A DNA stretch of 64,000 nucleotides from Candidatus Avelusimicrobium intestinipullorum. GTDB lineage: Bacteria > Elusimicrobiota > Elusimicrobia > Elusimicrobiales > Elusimicrobiaceae. Positions within the stretch are counted from its first letter, which is position 1; each line of letters begins with the position of its first letter. The stretch spans positions 1 to 64,000 of the forward strand of contig CALUXC010000006.1 in the NCBI GenBank assembly GCA_944324635.1, in the 5' to 3' direction. This document shows, piece by piece, positions 28,257-47,802 of the stretch. The notes beneath the pieces are model-generated. The model saw only the letters and a program-made list of their open reading frames with translations. It was not told the origin of the DNA and searched no databases. The position numbers and the translations under genes were made by a program.

Positions 28257-29255
28257 TTAAGGCAAAATCACCTGCGCGTCAAACCCGCTCATACGGGCCC
28301 ACTCTTTGTTGTTCCAAGCTAAGGTGCCGGGGCGGGCGTCTTTGAAATTGCGCCACCGGTGGAACAGGAAATCACGCGAGCCGCGCACGCTGGTAATGTT
28401 AATGGAAAATACTTCTTTTTCATTTAACATGTTAGCCAGGGCATACTTCCAGTCATACGCCGCGGCCAGCGGGGAAACGTACACAAAGAAAATAGCCCGC
28501 GGGAATTCTTCCCGCCACTGAGCCAAACTGCCCCGCATATGCCAAGCGCGTACGGCTTCGCCGGCGGCTGTTTTATCGGCGGGCAGAAGCAAGTTGGTGT
28601 TTTCCTGTGTGACATATCCTTCTTTTTGTATGGACGCGTCCTTCAGCCCGCCAATAGACAGGCCTTCATGCGCAAAAGAAAGAATAAAATTCTTGTCTGA
28701 TTCGGCCGCCGTAAAGCCAGACGCAAACCGCACGCCCTTATCGGGCAATGTCTCACTCAGCACAATAATCTTCCTATTGGGAAACGCTTCCCGATATTCC
28801 ATAATAATTTTTTTGAATGCGGAAAAAGATTGAAAATCGTGTTCTTTTCCACCCACCAATACATAGTTAACGTCCGCCCCAATGCGGGCAGGCAATTCCC
28901 CCTGGGAAAGCGTAGAAAGCAGGCCTGCCTCAAAGGGGTGCCGGACAAAAAACTGCAGTTGCTTTTGGCGAAGGGAAAAATCCTTGCGCATAAGGCGATT
29001 ACTTAATGCGGCCCACGCGTCCAGGCGCTCGGTTAAAACAGGCGTTACGGCGCTGTGGCGGCCATTTAACCACAACTCTACGCTTTGGTTAGGCGCTTTT
29101 AACGATCGGCGGGATTGCTTAAGTGCCTGCTGGGTAACAGGCAGGGAAGTGGCGGGTTTGGCTAGGGCACGCTGGGCACCCTGCCAGGCTTTCTGCCAGG
29201 TTTGTGCGGAAAGCAGGGACGGCATGAGTAAAAAAATAAAAATCCATTTCTTCAT
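28257..29255 (-). CDS. Secreted protein of unknown function
   Basis: The 332-residue protein has a clear signal peptide (MKKWIFIFLLMPSLLSAQ). After a basic, glutamine-rich N-terminal region comes an alpha/beta region containing NYVLVGGKEHDFQSF (near residues 130-144) and RKIIVLSETL. This faintly recalls the GExHD pattern of ChaN/Tiki-type proteins, but the first Glu is Gly here and I would not assign the family. It ends in WARMSGFDAQVILP. It is convergent with nagZ and lies downstream of the guaD terminator. A TAGAAT lies upstream, with no good ribosome site. Confidence 0.75.
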   Translation of the reverse strand: MKKWIFIFLLMPSLLSAQTWQKAWQGAQRALAKPATSLPVTQQALKQSRRSLKAPNQSVELWLNGRHSAVTPVLTERLDAWAALSNRLMRKDFSLRQKQLQFFVRHPFEAGLLSTLSQGELPARIGADVNYVLVGGKEHDFQSFSAFKKIIMEYREAFPNRKIIVLSETLPDKGVRFASGFTAAESDKNFILSFAHEGLSIGGLKDASIQKEGYVTQENTNLLLPADKTAAGEAVRAWHMRGSLAQWREEFPRAIFFVYVSPLAAAYDWKYALANMLNEKEVFSINITSVRGSRDFLFHRWRNFKDARPGTLAWNNKEWARMSGFDAQVILP

Positions 29256-29322
29256 ATAATTTTATTCTAAAATTTCTATCCGCCCAAAACCAGGGTCCTT
29301 AGTCCTAAATTCAAATAGGCCT

Positions 29323-35511: not shown

Positions 35512-36588
35512 TTATTTTTTGGCTTTTTTGGCTTTCAAAGCCGCCACTTTAGCGTCTTCCTGCTGCAGGAATTTGACGTAGTTGGCCGCTTTGCGTTTTT
35601 TCCAAGCGCCTTTGTGGTAACCGTAACCGATGATGAGCGGGATCAAGGTCGTGCATTCGCCGTACACCATCTGTTCCAGCGCGGTGGAAACTTTACCCCA
35701 GGAAGAAGCCTCCTTGAGGGTGGAGCCGGAGAGCGCACCGTCGCGCACGTCGGCTACGGTGATCTGCACGGCGTATTTGTGCATGGGGGCATCGGCACCC
35801 AAAATTTCGGCCGCGACCACGGTGTCCTGGGCGAAGTTTTTCGGTACGCCGCCGGAGAACATCATAAGACCGGTTTCTTTGGCTTTGATTTTGATTTTGG
35901 TGAGTTCCAAGAAGTCTTTGGCGCTGTCGATAGACACGTGAGCTTCGGGGTGTTCGGTCTGGTGGGCTACAAAGCCAAAACCGGCCGAGCAGTCCGAGAA
36001 CGCCGGCACAAACACGGGCACGCCGTATTTGTAAGCGTTATACACGATAGAATCTTTGCCTTTGCCTTTTTTCTCCAGCCATTTGCCCATTTCCCAAATG
36101 AATTCGCGGGAAGAGTAGGGGCGGGGTTCCAGGGAATTGCAGATTTTGTGGACGGTTTCGTCACATTCTTTCAGTTGGTCTTCGTCGATATAGGTGTCGT
36201 AGATACGGTCAATGTGCAAGTCGCGCAGCAAGTTGTCGTCGGCGTTGTAGGGAGTGCCGATATAGTGTTTGTAACCCAACGCTTCAAAGAAGTCCTGGTC
36301 CACAATGTTGGCGCCGTTGGAAACGATGGCGTCCACCATGTTGTTTTGAATCATGTCTACCACTACTTTTTTAAGTCCGGCGGATACGAGCGACCCCGCG
36401 ATGCACAAAATGACGGAGCATTTTTTGTCGGAAAGCATCATATTGTAGATTTTGCTCGCTCTGGCCACTTCGCGGGACGCGTAGGCCATGCTCCCAAAGG
36501 CTTCCACCATGGGAACCACATTGTATTTTTTCAAATCAATGTGTTTGATGGTGTCTTTGAGAAAGTCTTTTTTGGTAAGTTTTGCCAT
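35512..36588 (-). CDS. Deoxyhypusine synthase-like protein
   Basis: The 358-residue protein belongs to the DHS superfamily: VPMVEAFGSMAYASRE, SNGANIVDQDF (NAD site region), PVFVPAFSDCSAGFGF, the active-site loop GGVPKN with K250 aligned to the enamine-forming Lys of DHS, and ALSGSTLKEASSWGKV at the end. DHS moves the aminobutyl group of spermidine to a lysine in eIF5A. Bacteria lack eIF5A, so its substrate is open; some bacterial relatives make homospermidine. The C-terminus is Ala/Lys-rich. AGAGGTG precedes the ATG. It is the first gene of a seven-gene operon and diverges from glyA. Confidence 0.88.
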   Translation of the reverse strand: MAKLTKKDFLKDTIKHIDLKKYNVVPMVEAFGSMAYASREVARASKIYNMMLSDKKCSVILCIAGSLVSAGLKKVVVDMIQNNMVDAIVSNGANIVDQDFFEALGYKHYIGTPYNADDNLLRDLHIDRIYDTYIDEDQLKECDETVHKICNSLEPRPYSSREFIWEMGKWLEKKGKGKDSIVYNAYKYGVPVFVPAFSDCSAGFGFVAHQTEHPEAHVSIDSAKDFLELTKIKIKAKETGLMMFSGGVPKNFAQDTVVAAEILGADAPMHKYAVQITVADVRDGALSGSTLKEASSWGKVSTALEQMVYGECTTLIPLIIGYGYHKGAWKKRKAANYVKFLQQEDAKVAALKAKKAKK

Positions 36589-38008: not shown

Positions 38009-38041
38009 CCGGGGAGCGCCAGACAGCCTCCCCGGTTTTTT
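38009..38041 (+). terminator. Terminator of glyA
   Basis: CCGGGGAG/CTCCCCGG (38009-38016 with 38028-38035) is followed by TTTTTTAT. Confidence 0.85.
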
Positions 38042-38053
38042 ATTAGCGGGCCT

Positions 38054-38119
38054 AATTTTTTATGGGTCCATTGAATAATTTTTATGGGTCAAAAGACCCT
38101 GGTTTTAACCGGTCAAAAG
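38054..38119 (+). promoter_or_regulatory. Repeated elements upstream of the protease-like cluster
   Basis: AATTTTT(T)ATGGGTC occurs twice (38054-38068 and 38077-38090), with 22 bp between equivalent bases, about two helical turns. GGTCAAAAG also occurs twice (38087-38095 and 38111-38119), and GGGTC-AAAA-GACCC forms a small hairpin. TATAGA at about 38120-38125 is a possible -10. The phasing suggests binding sites for a regulator, but no regulator gene lies next to it. Confidence 0.4.
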
Positions 38120-38134
38120 CTATAGAGTATTAGC

Positions 38135-39262
38135 ATGAAGCGGTATCTTATTTTGCTTATCTTATATATGGCTGCGCTCCCGGCCCTGGTGCCGACGCAG
38201 GCGCACGCACAAAAAGCCGGCTTGCGCCAGGCGGCCAAAGCCTTGACGGGCTACAACGCCGCCGCGGCAACCAAACTGCCGGCCCTGCTGCCCCGTATAG
38301 AAACGGCCGCAGCGGTGGCCGCGCGTCAAGCGGCGATGCAAGCGGCGGCTCGCAAAGCGGCCGTCAAAGATATCCGCCTCTCCGTAGCCAAACTGCAATC
38401 CGCTTTGTTAAAAGACATGCCCGAAGCCAAACAACCTACGGCCACCGCTTTTATTTTCAAAACCACCTACAACGGCAAAGAAGAAGTTTGGGGTGCCACG
38501 GCCGGACATATTGCCAAAGGCATGGGTAACAATTTATTGCTGATTTTTTACGAAGGGGACCAAAAATTTGTCGTCCCCGCACAAGTCGTGCAGTACGGGC
38601 CCAACATGATTTCGGATATCGCCCTCTTAAAACTGCCCGACAATCTCCCCGCTCAGATTAACCCCCTCCCGCTGGCCGAGCCGCCTTTTGCCCTGGGGGA
38701 ACCTTTTATCTCGACGGGATATTGCGCCCATGATTTAGTGTACACGGGCAAACAGGCCCTGCAAAAAGACAATCAGCGTTTCCTGCGCACCGATTATACG
38801 GTGCCGCTTAGCAAACGCGCCGGTCTTTGCGGAGCCCCGCTGATTAACAGCCAAGGGGCCGTCACCGGCATTCACTGCGGAAGCGTGTGGAACAATACCA
38901 CCGGCTATGCTTCCAACGTAAAAGTGCTGTCCTATTTATTAAAGGCCCAACACGAAGGAACGGCCGAAATTCCGTTAGTGGCCGGCAAAGTGGTTTTCGG
39001 AAACATCAAAACGACCGAGCACATTCATTCCATTGAAGCGCTGGACGCCGAATTCCGCGACCTGGCCCGCTACGATACAGCAAACCGGCTGACTCAGTCC
39101 ACCATGTTGTCTTTGCTCCAAGAACCCGGCACACGCTACCTGCGCTTTATGCTGGAAGACCGCAAAGCAAACCCGGTGGATTTTAATATGCGTAACGATT
39201 TTCGTTACCTGATTTACGACAAGGAAACTCAAACTTCGCGTTTTGAGCCGATACACTGGTGA
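38135..39262 (+). CDS. Exported trypsin-fold protein with cysteine at the nucleophile position, paralogue 1
   Basis: The 375-residue protein has a signal peptide ending near AHAQ (residue 26) and an Ala-rich, basic helical segment (27-95). A chymotrypsin-like double barrel follows: H125 in GATAGHIAKG, D161 in ISDIALLKLP, and C232 in AGLCGAPL where serine proteases have GDSGGP. A strand TGIHCGSV follows as in S1 proteases. A C-terminal region of about 100 residues holds VAGKVVFGNI and is shared with the other three copies. His, Asp and Cys could form a 3C-like cysteine-protease triad. Substrate unknown. First of four tandem genes; weak ribosome site. Confidence 0.85.
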   Translation: MKRYLILLILYMAALPALVPTQAHAQKAGLRQAAKALTGYNAAAATKLPALLPRIETAAAVAARQAAMQAAARKAAVKDIRLSVAKLQSALLKDMPEAKQPTATAFIFKTTYNGKEEVWGATAGHIAKGMGNNLLLIFYEGDQKFVVPAQVVQYGPNMISDIALLKLPDNLPAQINPLPLAEPPFALGEPFISTGYCAHDLVYTGKQALQKDNQRFLRTDYTVPLSKRAGLCGAPLINSQGAVTGIHCGSVWNNTTGYASNVKVLSYLLKAQHEGTAEIPLVAGKVVFGNIKTTEHIHSIEALDAEFRDLARYDTANRLTQSTMLSLLQEPGTRYLRFMLEDRKANPVDFNMRNDFRYLIYDKETQTSRFEPIHW

Positions 39263-39270
39263 GGTGTCTT

Positions 39271-40461
39271 ATGAAACGAACTTGCTTATTTGTTGCCTTA
39301 ACCGTTTGCATGCTTTCCCCGATGAATACTTTTGCTCAAAAGAACCTCATCAAAGCGGGCGAAAAATTGCTTCCCGCCAACCTGCGCAAAATGGTGGCCC
39401 CGCTGGTGCACAAACAAACGGCCCCGTTTGCGGTGCAAGGGCTGTCGGCCGCGGCGGCGCATAATTTATCGCTGCAAATTACGTCCCAAGTACAAATCAA
39501 AAAACCGCTGATGCACATGCCGGCGCTGTTGCCGTTTGAACAACATGTACGGCATTTTATTTTTACGGTATCCGCCAAAGGGGTGGAACGTCCGTTTAAG
39601 GGAAGCGGCTTTGTGTTTGCCGAACAGCACGAAGGCCAAACCGTGCTGTGGGGTTTTACGGCGGCCCATGTGGTGCGCGGTATGGGGACGGACGTGAACG
39701 TAACATTTTATAATGACGGAAAAGAATATGTTTATCCCGCCCGCGTGGTAATGACCGGCCGCAAATACGGCATTAACGCGGCGTTGATTCAATTGCCGCC
39801 GGAAGTAGCCGAAGTGGCGCGCCCGGTATTGGCTGCGGCGCGTTTTCCGAAAGACGGCAGCAAGCTGTTTACCTATGGCTTTAGCGGCGGCGAATACAAG
39901 AAAACCCTTCGCCGCGTGTTGGCCGCTCACTCCGACCGCGTAGTGGCCACGTTCCCCCAGCAAAATCAACCCCGCCCCGGCTTCTGCGGGAGCTTGGTGG
40001 TGAACGAAAAAGGGCATGCCGTCGGTATTGAAGTGGGTGGCTATTCCCCCAAAAAAGAATACCTCCAATGGTATCATGTAAAAGATAAACTGCAGTCTCT
40101 GCCGCGCGGCGATTTATCGCGCATCAGCGAAATCGTGCCGTTTAACCGGGCGTATGATTTAATCCGCGAATACCGCAACCCCGGTTCTGCTTTGCGGGTG
40201 ATTTTGTTTGACGGTATGATTATCGGCAGAATTTCCAAAGACGAATTTGTGGAAAGAGTGACGGTGCATTACGAAGACGGTTCTTACACCACCGTGATGC
40301 GCAATCCCTTTTTCAACGTGGCAGGATTAGATGATTTGTTTAATTTAGAAAATGCCGTCCAGGCGGATATTGTCATTAACAAAAACCGCATTCACACGTA
40401 CGGCTACAGAGTGAACTTGAAAGAACATAAAGCGGAGAAGATAGGAGATACAAGAGAATGA
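39271..40461 (+). CDS. Exported trypsin-fold protein with cysteine at the nucleophile position, paralogue 2
   Basis: The 396-residue protein has a signal peptide ending near TFAQ (residue 23). H133 lies in GFTAAHVVRG and C239 in RPGFCGSLVV. The residue in the Asp position is N169 (YGINAALIQLP), so only this paralogue lacks the acidic triad member; it could use a dyad or be less active. A C-terminal domain begins around FDGMIIGRI. I chose the ATG at 39271, with GAGGTG upstream; a GTG at 39259 overlaps the previous stop. It overlaps paralogue 3 by 4 nt (ATGA). Confidence 0.85.
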   Translation: MKRTCLFVALTVCMLSPMNTFAQKNLIKAGEKLLPANLRKMVAPLVHKQTAPFAVQGLSAAAAHNLSLQITSQVQIKKPLMHMPALLPFEQHVRHFIFTVSAKGVERPFKGSGFVFAEQHEGQTVLWGFTAAHVVRGMGTDVNVTFYNDGKEYVYPARVVMTGRKYGINAALIQLPPEVAEVARPVLAAARFPKDGSKLFTYGFSGGEYKKTLRRVLAAHSDRVVATFPQQNQPRPGFCGSLVVNEKGHAVGIEVGGYSPKKEYLQWYHVKDKLQSLPRGDLSRISEIVPFNRAYDLIREYRNPGSALRVILFDGMIIGRISKDEFVERVTVHYEDGSYTTVMRNPFFNVAGLDDLFNLENAVQADIVINKNRIHTYGYRVNLKEHKAEKIGDTRE

Positions 40462-41660
40462 AAGTAAGAAGATGGGTTGTCGTTTTCAGTGCGGCGGCGC
40501 TGCTGTGCTGTTATGCACCGGCGCCGGCGTACGCGCAGAAAAGCATTAAAAAATTCATACAAAAAATTTTAGCCCCCTACAAAAAAACAGGGTCGCGCAA
40601 TTTGCCTTCGGTACTCCCGCGGATTAATCCCAAATCGCTGGACGCTGTGGCTTTTTCCAAAATTTCCAACCGCGGCGCCCGCGTATCGGTAGCGCCGCTG
40701 TTTAATGCGGACGTCCCCTCCATCGCCCCGCGCCCGCTTATGCCGGCGCCCGCCGAAGTGCGCCGGGCGGTGTTCACCTTGCAGTACAACCCGCAAACAC
40801 ATGGGAAAGGGTCCGCCTTTGCCATAGATATTGACGGGGAAGTATGGGGCGTAACCGCACGCCACGTGTTAGACGACATCAGCCGCTCGCCGTACATGTC
40901 CGTACCGGACGAAAACGGCAACCCCCTTTATTTCCAAGTACACTCGGTGCGGGAAGGCAACGTGCACGGGGCGGATTTGGCTATTTTCCGCATTCCGCCG
41001 CAAGCCTTGGCGTATGTATCGCCCTTAAAGCCCGACTATGTTCTCCCCGAAGCTAATACCGATATTCAATCCGCCGGATTCTCGCACGGTAATTTCGGTT
41101 GGTTTAGCCGCATTGGCGTATTGTTTTCCAGCAGCCACCGCATTTTAACACGCTACGAAGATTTCCCTATTCGCAACGGATACTGCGGATCTCCTCTGTT
41201 AAAAGACGGCAAAGTCATCGGCGTTTTTGCCGGGATTATCACTGCCGATCTGGCCCAATCGGCCGAGTGGTTCCGCCTGCTGTCGGATTTCAAAACTTCC
41301 ATCACCTCTTTTAGCCACGTAGTACCCGTAGCGTGGGTGCGCACCTTGGCGCAGCAGGGTAAAAATGCCAACGACCCCAATGGCGTTCCCTTAAAATTGC
41401 TGGGGCATACGCTGGGAATTTTGCACGCGGACGAAAACGTCCAAACCATTCAGCACTTACGTGACGGCAAGTTAATTAAAGCCCTGCACTCTTATCCGTT
41501 TATGGACTACAACCACTTGGAACGTTTTTTGGACATCGGTCCGAACGACGTTATTCGCGTATTTGTACAAAAAGGGGACCGCTCGTCTTCCAGACGTTAT
41601 GTGTTTATCTATGAATGGGACGTGCAGGCCGCCACGCTAAAACGTATGGAGAGTAGATAA
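40458..41660 (+). CDS. Exported trypsin-fold protein with cysteine at the nucleophile position, paralogue 3
   Basis: The 400-residue protein has a signal peptide ending near AYAQ (residue 27). H136 lies in GVTARHVLDD, D173 in HGADLAIFRIP and C243 in NGYCGSPLL, followed by VIGVFAG. The N-terminal linker (28-100) is basic and Pro-rich, with the short SVLPRI segment also seen in paralogue 1 (ALLPRI). The C-terminal domain has LLGHTLGIL and a final beta-rich stretch. It is coupled to paralogue 2 by an ATGA overlap and is followed by paralogue 4 after 1 bp. Confidence 0.85.
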   Translation: MKVRRWVVVFSAAALLCCYAPAPAYAQKSIKKFIQKILAPYKKTGSRNLPSVLPRINPKSLDAVAFSKISNRGARVSVAPLFNADVPSIAPRPLMPAPAEVRRAVFTLQYNPQTHGKGSAFAIDIDGEVWGVTARHVLDDISRSPYMSVPDENGNPLYFQVHSVREGNVHGADLAIFRIPPQALAYVSPLKPDYVLPEANTDIQSAGFSHGNFGWFSRIGVLFSSSHRILTRYEDFPIRNGYCGSPLLKDGKVIGVFAGIITADLAQSAEWFRLLSDFKTSITSFSHVVPVAWVRTLAQQGKNANDPNGVPLKLLGHTLGILHADENVQTIQHLRDGKLIKALHSYPFMDYNHLERFLDIGPNDVIRVFVQKGDRSSSRRYVFIYEWDVQAATLKRMESR

Positions 41661-41661
41661 C

Positions 41662-42900
41662 ATGAACCGTCCCGCCGCCTGTTTTTTGCTTGCTCTGTCT
41701 ATTACGCTTCCCAGGGCGGTGTATGCCCAAAAGCAACTGCTCCCGGCCGCACGGGCTTTGCGGCAAACGACCGCCATTTCAAAAGGGCCGGAAATCTCCT
41801 CGGTTTCTACACGTATGGGCCTAGCGCCAAAAGTATTTTTTGATCCGCTGATCCCTTATTCCAATGCCGAAAAATTGCTGGCCAAAAACCTGCGCTTAAA
41901 CGCCAGAGCCCAAGTACAAAAACCTATTTCCGTTCCGCTTCCGCCGCGGCTTAGCGCCCAAAAACGCAAACAGCGCCAAATGGCTGTTTTTGATGCGCAT
42001 GCGGCAGAAATGATGGTCAATTTGCAAAATCCGTTCTTATGGGATTTAATGCCCGTGGCCGCTTCGGCCTTTTTTGTGGAAGAAACCTATCAAGGGCAAC
42101 GTTATTTGTGGGCCGTAACGGCACAGCACGTGGCGGACTTAATCGGCCCGGACATCTACGCCCACCGCACTTTTGAAGAAGGATCCACCTTACGTTTCCC
42201 CTTAAAAACAGCCGTAAAAGGAAACGCCGGCATGGCGGATATTGCCCTGTTGGAAGTGCCGCCGGAACTGGCCGAACTCGTGCGCCCGATTTCTTTGGCG
42301 CAGCAGGACGCACAGCCGGGTGACGTGCTTCGCTCGTATGGTTTTTTTGCAGATGATCTTCGTATCGTACACAATCGCCGCGTCCTGGCGGTAGCGCCCA
42401 ACCGCGCTATCACTTCTTTTGAATTTGCCGACTACGACCGCTCCGGCGCCTGCGGCGGCCCCGTCTTAAATGAAAATAACGAGGTGGTAGGCGTTCATGT
42501 AGGCAGTTCCAGCAACAAAAAAGAAAGTTACGTGGTGCCGGTATCTTGGTTAAAAAATTTGCTCTATGCCGCGCACCATAACGGCATCTACGAACAAGAC
42601 CTCGTGCTAAACGGCCGCACGATAGGAACGATTAACATTGACGAATATATTTATTCCTTAAATGTAAAAAGAAACGGCGCTACGGTGCGCAGTTTGGTTC
42701 CGTGGCGCATGGAATTTCAGGTAGATTACAACCAACTGGAAAAACTCCTTTCCCCCGCTCAAGGCGATGAAATGGAAATCATCATCATCAAAAACGGCAC
42801 CGTCCAAACCGCCAGCGACGACCAAGCCACCCGCCGCATGCTGACGGTGGACCTGAAAACAGGCGAAGTGGAGCAAACGGATTTGTCCTCCAACCCATAA
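41662..42900 (+). CDS. Exported trypsin-fold protein with cysteine at the nucleophile position, paralogue 4
   Basis: The 412-residue protein has a signal peptide ending near VYAQ (residue 23). H156 lies in AVTAQHVADL, D193 in GMADIALLEVP and C264 in SGACGGPVL, the copy closest to the classical GDSGGP with only Ser changed to Cys. VVGVHVGSS follows. The C-terminal domain starts near LNGRTIGTI, parallel to the other copies. It is last in the operon and is followed by a strong bidirectional terminator. Confidence 0.87.
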   Translation: MNRPAACFLLALSITLPRAVYAQKQLLPAARALRQTTAISKGPEISSVSTRMGLAPKVFFDPLIPYSNAEKLLAKNLRLNARAQVQKPISVPLPPRLSAQKRKQRQMAVFDAHAAEMMVNLQNPFLWDLMPVAASAFFVEETYQGQRYLWAVTAQHVADLIGPDIYAHRTFEEGSTLRFPLKTAVKGNAGMADIALLEVPPELAELVRPISLAQQDAQPGDVLRSYGFFADDLRIVHNRRVLAVAPNRAITSFEFADYDRSGACGGPVLNENNEVVGVHVGSSSNKKESYVVPVSWLKNLLYAAHHNGIYEQDLVLNGRTIGTINIDEYIYSLNVKRNGATVRSLVPWRMEFQVDYNQLEKLLSPAQGDEMEIIIIKNGTVQTASDDQATRRMLTVDLKTGEVEQTDLSSNP

Positions 42901-42932
42901 AAAAACCGGGGTGTTAGCGCCCCGGTTTTTTA
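42901..42932. terminator. Bidirectional terminator between the protease-like cluster and the Sel1 gene
   Basis: AAAACCGGGG-TGTTAGCG-CCCCGGTTTT has T-runs on both strands and separates convergent genes. Confidence 0.88.

Positions 42933-46368: not shown

Positions 46369-47802
<1,434 letters not shown>

Follow-up and report, generated by a model that had tools for sequence, protein, structure and literature searches.

A tandem array of four genes (positions 38135-42900, forward strand) in a 64,000-nucleotide stretch of the genome of Candidatus Avelusimicrobium intestinipullorum (contig CALUXC010000006.1, positions 1 to 64,000; hereafter referred to as the window; G+C content about 52%) very probably encodes Sec-exported cysteine proteases of the chymotrypsin/HtrA fold, a branch of the PA clan in the Elusimicrobiaceae that would have arisen from an HtrA-like serine protease and later expanded into divergent paralogues. 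The nine cysteine families of this clan are proteases of positive-strand RNA viruses (PMC6524800), and a Cys nucleophile in a trypsin fold has otherwise been described only from RNA viruses; here, it is carried by an exported family of gut Elusimicrobiota. No earlier report of this family, or of any bacterial cysteine family in the PA clan, was retrieved by a literature search to which MEROPS and subscription papers were external, and the family is new in the sense of not being found in the literature searched. An earlier note, made from the sequence alone, had described four adjacent exported trypsin-fold paralogues at this place and had proposed that they form an exported family of bacterial cysteine proteases resembling 3C. 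The open reading frames lie exactly where it put them, all on the forward strand, and the proposal is supported, with the refinement that the kinship is with HtrA- and V8-type proteases, the likeness to 3C being probably convergent.

The four genes and the fold of their products

Copy 1, a predicted exported Cys trypsin-fold protease (38135..39262, forward strand; 375 residues), has H125, D161 and C232 at the catalytic positions, and copy 2 (39259..40461, forward; 400 residues from a GTG codon) has H137, N173 and C243. The start of copy 2 is more likely to be the ATG at 39271 (signal peptide MKRTCLF..., 396 residues), and the C239 of the earlier note corresponds to numbering from this ATG, C243 being the same residue numbered from the GTG. 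Copy 3 (40458..41660, forward; 400 residues) has H136, D173 and C243, and copy 4 (41662..42900, forward; 412 residues), the copy for which a structure was predicted, has H156, D193 and C264. The computed positions of the nucleophile Cys codons are 38828..38830, 39985..39987, 41184..41186 and 42451..42453 for copies 1 to 4, respectively, all on the forward strand. As claimed initially, Cys replaces the catalytic Ser in all four copies (GLCGAP, GFCGSL, GYCGSP and GACGGP), every copy has the His, and the Asp is found in three, copy 2 having Asn. The order His, Asp, nucleophile in GxSG/GxCG is thus that of the PA clan, with Asn for Asp in copy 2. Whole-protein identity of copies 2-4 to copy 1 is only 20-26%, and yet no copy varies in the His, the Cys or the glycines that flank them.

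In every copy, a signal peptide ending at A/QK leads into a basic region rich in Ala; the trypsin-like domain comes next, and the C-terminal domain that closes the protein has about 100 residues. The signal peptides, read from the sequence, span 38135..38209 in copy 1 (to AHA/QK) and, with the same AxA/QK type of site, 39271-39336, 40458-40535 and 41662-41727 in copies 2-4 (all forward). This site is conserved, with A in 116 and Q in 109 of 130 relatives. Consecutive genes overlap by four bases (copies 1-2 and 2-3), and copy 4 begins just past copy 3. Terminator-like hairpins followed by T runs lie 3' of the upstream gene glyA (38009..38042, forward), marking the operon boundary, and 3' of copy 4 (42906..42931, forward); both were identified by eye and are absent from the list of an automatic scan. 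With such hairpins on both sides, the four genes look like a single operon.

The AlphaFold2 model of copy 4, built with 48 window and relative sequences, had a predicted local distance difference test score (pLDDT) of 86.6 and a predicted template modelling score (pTM) of 0.83. Alignment of this model with VIA-align to Deg1, DegP, DegQ, MucD and HtrA1 gave Z values of 19-20.5 over 182-200 residues, mostly at 2.5-3.5 Å, the best matches being DegP, DegQ and Deg1 (Z of 19.8-20.5, 191-200 residues, 2.8-3.3 Å); the double beta-barrel of the PA clan was thus recovered on DegP/HtrA chains. Pfam Trypsin_2 (PF13365) scores were 32.1, 33.0 and 34.7 bits for copies 1, 2 and 4, above the curated cutoff of 27.6 bits, and 24.2 bits for copy 3, below it. 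HMMER alignment set the family Cys on the Ser of Deg2.

The C-terminal domain, which the earlier note had reported as shared by the four proteins, is real. It occupies 38945..39259, 40168..40458, 41355..41657 and 42568..42897 in copies 1-4 (all forward), and its matches in 13 searched genomes all lie inside reading frames of the size of this protease family. The domain of copy 4 folded alone with a pLDDT of 83.8. No Pfam match over the cutoff, and no PDZ match in Pfam, was obtained for it, and the copy 4 domain alone gave no match in the PDB (Foldseek E≥0.9, VIA-align Z≤4.5). The lack of matches would still be compatible with a diverged PDZ domain. No new fold is claimed. The domain probably serves to bind substrates or partners.

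Conservation of the catalytic residues and predicted specificity

For residue counts, 130 full-length copies were aligned with MAFFT. The nucleophile position was occupied by Cys in 122 of these copies and by Ser in none; His was found in 123 and Asp in 120. His, Asp and Cys, together with the surrounding glycines, were among the most conserved columns of a 48-sequence alignment with a mean column identity of 27%. Both His and Cys were present in 122 copies (hereafter referred to as active) and both were absent from seven; one copy had His with Ala in place of Cys, and none had Cys without His. The tree showed four losses of His, each of them coinciding with one of five losses of Cys. The seven copies without His thus all lack Cys as well, and the two residues therefore behave as a catalytic pair. 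In 53 of the 122 active copies, the nucleophile was the sole cysteine of the mature part, and every other Cys column was occupied in at most 22 of the 130; these counts argue against a role of the nucleophile in a conserved disulphide. The conservation of Cys, which the earlier note had held not to be simply due to recent duplication, is far beyond chance: the genome of the window contains three further copies, and Cys is kept by 122 of the 130 full-length relatives.

In copies 1, 3 and 4, catalysis would rely on a His-Asp-Cys triad; copy 2, which has Asn instead of Asp, would depend on a His-Cys pair. In known enzymes, the triad may shrink to a His-Cys dyad, as in the 3C protease of hepatitis A virus and the 3CL protease of coronaviruses (PMC6524800). 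After Sec export and cleavage of the signal peptide at AxA/QK, the His would activate the Cys thiol for attack on the substrate carbonyl, the usual GxCG loop providing the oxyanion hole, and the resulting thioacyl-enzyme would be hydrolysed by water. With Cys as the nucleophile, the acyl-enzyme tends to live longer. This general property, and the co-regulated exported proteins described below as possible partners, would suit acyl transferases or ligases in which the thioacyl-enzyme is resolved by an amine, in a sortase-like or transpeptidase reaction linking exported proteins; the fold, the order of the triad and the S1 motif are nevertheless those of proteases, no common substrate motif was found at C-termini (no search aimed at one was made), and we consider such a reaction quite improbable.

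A G-[IV]-H-x-G motif is located 15 residues past the Cys, and phmmer sets its His on the His of V8 protease (GIHWGG). In glutamyl endopeptidases and in viral 3C/3CL proteases, the aligned His position forms the wall of S1 that binds Glu or Gln. This position was occupied by His in 85 of the 122 active copies, by Tyr in 13, by Phe in 12 and by Glu in six; the GxHxG motif was absent from all the Ser relatives examined. Copies 1-4 of the window have His (H247), Glu, Phe and His (H279), respectively. As judged from these residues, copies 1 and 4, with an S1-type His, probably cut after Glu or Gln, and copies 2 (Glu) and 3 (Phe) would have other preferences and cut elsewhere. The earlier note had envisaged either a processing cascade or a set of enzymes with different substrates. 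The divergent S1 residues seem to fit different substrates better, and the cascade is not favoured.

Several observations weigh against an interpretation in terms of active enzymes. The association between losses of His and Cys was strong across copies (Fisher's test, P=8e-11), but this value is overstated because the copies are related, and a test of joint loss on independent pairs, with only three to four events, was not significant (P=0.25). The ratio of nonsynonymous to synonymous substitution rates (dN/dS) was 0.11-0.32 in close active orthologues, but two inactive pairs had ratios of 0.10-0.14, indicating that they too are under purifying selection, and low dN/dS is therefore no proof of catalysis. 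The Asp is missing from copy 2, several orthologues of which are degenerate: the Asn is shared with orthologues from four other species that have the His, one of which has Ala for Cys, and five more members of the clade lack both His and Cys. Copy 2 would accordingly be a dyad enzyme or one in decay. Furthermore, the profile used to collect the family was seeded with Cys copies, the His-Cys distance and the S1 geometry are as suggested by alignments, and we infer, rather than observe, the catalytic activity, specificity, final location and natural substrates of these proteins and the role of their C-terminal domain.

An alternative is that the proteins are pseudoproteases, the barrel being an exported binding or scaffold protein and the Cys either a remnant or a residue used in binding rather than catalysis. 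The purifying selection on copies without His and Cys indicates that the fold can serve without catalysis, and some family members may serve as binding proteins; the loss of Asp from copy 2 and the decay of its orthologues point in the same direction. For the earlier note, a Cys placed away from the His, or a freely varying position, would have indicated pseudoproteases. The model was a confident trypsin/HtrA double barrel, in profile alignment the Cys fell on the Ser that serves as nucleophile in Deg2, and the Cys was lost only together with the His, save for the one change from Cys to Ala. All four window copies retain both residues, as do 122 of the 130 relatives over a very old divergence, and joint rather than single loss is not predicted by a free binding role. 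Pseudoproteases are thus an improbable explanation for the family, and we retain the interpretation of active cysteine proteases.

Domains of the family also occur in giant proteins. A genome from a related genus (G034; 1,643,562 bases) encodes a 3,965-residue protein with four such domains (L169:5766-17663), the third of which has jointly lost His and Cys, and a 1,363-residue protein with one (L170:2687-6778). The larger protein begins with a signal peptide of the AYAQ type and contains long stretches that are hydrophobic and transporter-like. These giant proteins are possibly self-processing polyproteins. A third genus of the same bacterial family encodes a tetratricopeptide-repeat protein of more than 3,000 residues (L115:2819-11926) with a Ser trypsin-like domain (GASGSP); giants with embedded proteases therefore extend beyond the Cys clade.

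Relatives, origin and evolution of the locus

The three further copies in the genome of the window are located at C1:315-318 kb (two) and C2:198-199 kb (one), and separate Ser trypsin-fold proteins (GSSGGP, SSSGSP and GNSGGG) are encoded by the same genome. Matches at C4 (L020), considered as a possible eighth copy, were rejected because they share the N-terminal leader only and are ChaN/Tiki-like; family counts exclude them, as well as L046, a Ser HtrA. Of 66 genomes from the genus, 48 contained the family, with as many as 15 copies in a single genome. A phylum-wide search gave matches in 39 of 150 genomes, with strong matches only in the genus of the window and one other genus of the same family. 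An orthologue-group alignment search returned relatives only from Elusimicrobiota, in a scan limited by its pattern, such that absence elsewhere does not follow. As far as the searches reached, the range of the family is the Elusimicrobiaceae. A mobile-element origin was also considered and rejected, there being no relatives in the plasmids, phages and viral contigs searched.

In a tree of 105 Cys-family domains and nine Ser relatives, obtained by a quick search with the catalytic columns included, the two groups lay on either side of a single branch (Shimodaira-Hasegawa-like approximate likelihood ratio test, 95). Copies 1-4 fell into four well-separated clades. The simplest reading is a single change from Ser to Cys in a bacterial HtrA-like lineage, before the split between the genus of the window and that of G034. 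With well over 100 sampled members, Ser relatives in the same genomes and several dead copies, the family constitutes a natural experiment on the change from serine to cysteine protease.

The known system closest in structure is that of the periplasmic serine proteases HtrA, DegP, DegS and Deg (MEROPS S1C), in which an exported double barrel is likewise followed by a C-terminal domain; profile matches of the family to Deg2, HhoA and HTRA1 agree with this kinship. Unlike these enzymes, the four window copies have Cys instead of the catalytic Ser, most family members have the S1-type His, and divergent tandem paralogues are numerous; HtrA proteases carry PDZ where the family has its C-terminal domain, in which no PDZ was identified. 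The glutamyl endopeptidases (V8) and Spl proteases (MEROPS S1B) share the aligned S1-type His, and SplA and V8 were among the best single-sequence PDB matches for one family member, but their nucleophile is Ser and no C-terminal domain of this kind is known in them. The NCBIfam model for MarP (Rv3671c), a periplasmic serine protease that also matches in fold, was the top weak match for copies 1, 2 and 4 (E values of 2e-7 to 8e-3); however, the score was 30 bits against a curated cutoff of 250 bits, and MarP has a Ser nucleophile and a membrane anchor rather than a signal peptide.

The picornain 3C and coronavirus 3CL proteases (MEROPS C3 and C30) have in common with the family the chymotrypsin fold, the GxCG loop, a Cys nucleophile with His in a His-Asp/Glu-Cys triad or His-Cys dyad (PMC6524800), and the S1-type His found in most copies. 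They differ from it in that the window proteins are bacterial, chromosomally encoded, Sec-exported and stand-alone, with a C-terminal domain of their own; there is no RNA-virus polyprotein, and the genes occupy a fixed chromosomal place between glyA and a Sel1 gene. The Pfam Peptidase_C3 scores of copies 1 and 4 (13.4 and 12.6 bits) were below the cutoff of 22 bits, and copies 2 and 3 gave no match; one fused relative exceeded the cutoff (24.2 bits). Direct kinship, the genes descending from an RNA-virus 3C protease or having given rise to one, could be argued from the Cys nucleophile, the S1 His and these weak matches. The best PDB profile matches were nevertheless Deg2, HhoA, V8, MarP (Rv3671c) and HTRA1, with picornaviral 3C weaker; the viral contigs and phages searched contained no relatives, and Ser relatives are present in the same bacterial family. 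In a Foldseek search, viral models gave same-fold matches, the named ones being mostly serine/trypsin-like and none closer than bacterial HtrA, and a viral origin was rejected. Such kinship is very improbable indeed. As both structure and sequence are nearest to bacterial HtrA/V8-type serine proteases, the resemblance to 3C is best read as convergent.

The neighbours of the array, a deoxyhypusine-synthase-like gene and glyA upstream and a Sel1-repeat gene, mostly also with a Band 7 gene, downstream, were constant in the related contigs of other species long enough to show them. In the ten closest contigs, the deoxyhypusine-synthase-like, glyA and Band 7 genes were 87-99.7% identical, whereas identity among the true counterparts of copies 1-4 was mostly 40-70%. 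Fast divergence of the proteases has thus left their catalytic residues in place. This divergence bears on a further alternative, in which active cysteine proteases would clear misfolded exported proteins without specific cleavage, as in HtrA-like periplasmic quality control. DegP, DegQ and DegS are indeed the nearest structures, but the presence of as many as 15 divergent copies in one genome, their rapid change at a fixed locus and the variation in the S1 residue fit substrate diversification, the same genome encodes ordinary Ser trypsin-fold proteins, and no PDZ domain was identified. General quality control is thus an unlikely role, and specific proteolysis of diverse substrates is preferred.

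A shared promoter element and other genes of the window

A palindromic promoter element, GGGTCAAAAGACCCTGGTTT (20 bases; 38086..38105, forward), begins 49 bases 5' of the first ATG of the array and is followed, on its 3' side, by an AT-rich, -10-like stretch, TATAGAGTAT (38121-38130, forward). Its consensus, (A/G)GGNC(T/C)NNNGNCCCT(T/G)GTTT, overlaps a -35-like box. With one mismatch allowed, the pattern RGGNCHNNDGNCCYTKGTTT occurred at 15 sites in the genome of the window, two in the window itself (the second at 29287-29306, reverse strand) and 13 further sites, versus none for the reversed pattern. Eleven of the 15 sites begin 43-92 bases 5' of the ATG of a gene encoding a signal peptide, and for 10 of these 11 genes the mature N-terminus appears to lie at or beside AQ. 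The -10 stretch is very near the ATG at several sites, and the mRNAs may therefore be nearly leaderless. Across the genus, the element was found upstream of 43 of 130 family genes (≤2 mismatches), versus one for the reversed control, and inside no gene; this cross-species count is the fairer test, because most of the sites used to draw up the pattern come from the genome of the window. Two earlier promoter patterns were dropped, one being no better than the control and the other mis-spaced.

The element-bearing genes include the family protease gene at C1:318 kb and a ChaN/Tiki-like gene of the window (28257-29255), and the AQ leader is found in the proteases, in the products of five ChaN/Tiki-like genes arrayed at C4:38-45 kb and in a small number of further exported proteins. 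Element and leader together point to a co-regulated export set, and the element suggests a regulator of an exported-protein regulon. The fixed locus, rapid divergence and common promoter element likewise point to a concerted exported-protein set in gut Elusimicrobiota. More speculatively, the family could be a cellular counterpart of viral 3C, in which the change from Ser to Cys in an HtrA-type protease and the gain of the S1 His founded a large exported family with diverging specificities, under a palindromic promoter shared with AQ-leader proteins, the giant protein of G034 being perhaps a self-processing polyprotein; we regard this broader scheme as possible but doubtful.

The C4:38-45 kb array (L020:2295-8798; also L151) is a second tandem array, of five exported paralogues with weak similarity to Pfam ChaN/Tiki (PF04187) and GEVH-type motifs, and the window gene at 28257-29255 looks like a diverged member of this set. 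At L152, two adjacent genes encode AQ-leader exported proteins that resemble each other around a YRG(L/M)G sequence, and their fold is possibly ADP-ribosyltransferase-like. Two other genes of the window were recorded. The deoxyhypusine-synthase-like gene (35512-36588, reverse strand) adjoins glyA, matches PF01916 with 312.8 bits and is 97-99.7% identical across the closest species; the deoxyhypusine synthase family is best known from archaea and eukaryotes. Finally, a gene for a V/A-type ATP synthase subunit (46369-47787, reverse strand; PF22919 and PF00006), here in a bacterium, is about 97% identical across the closest species.

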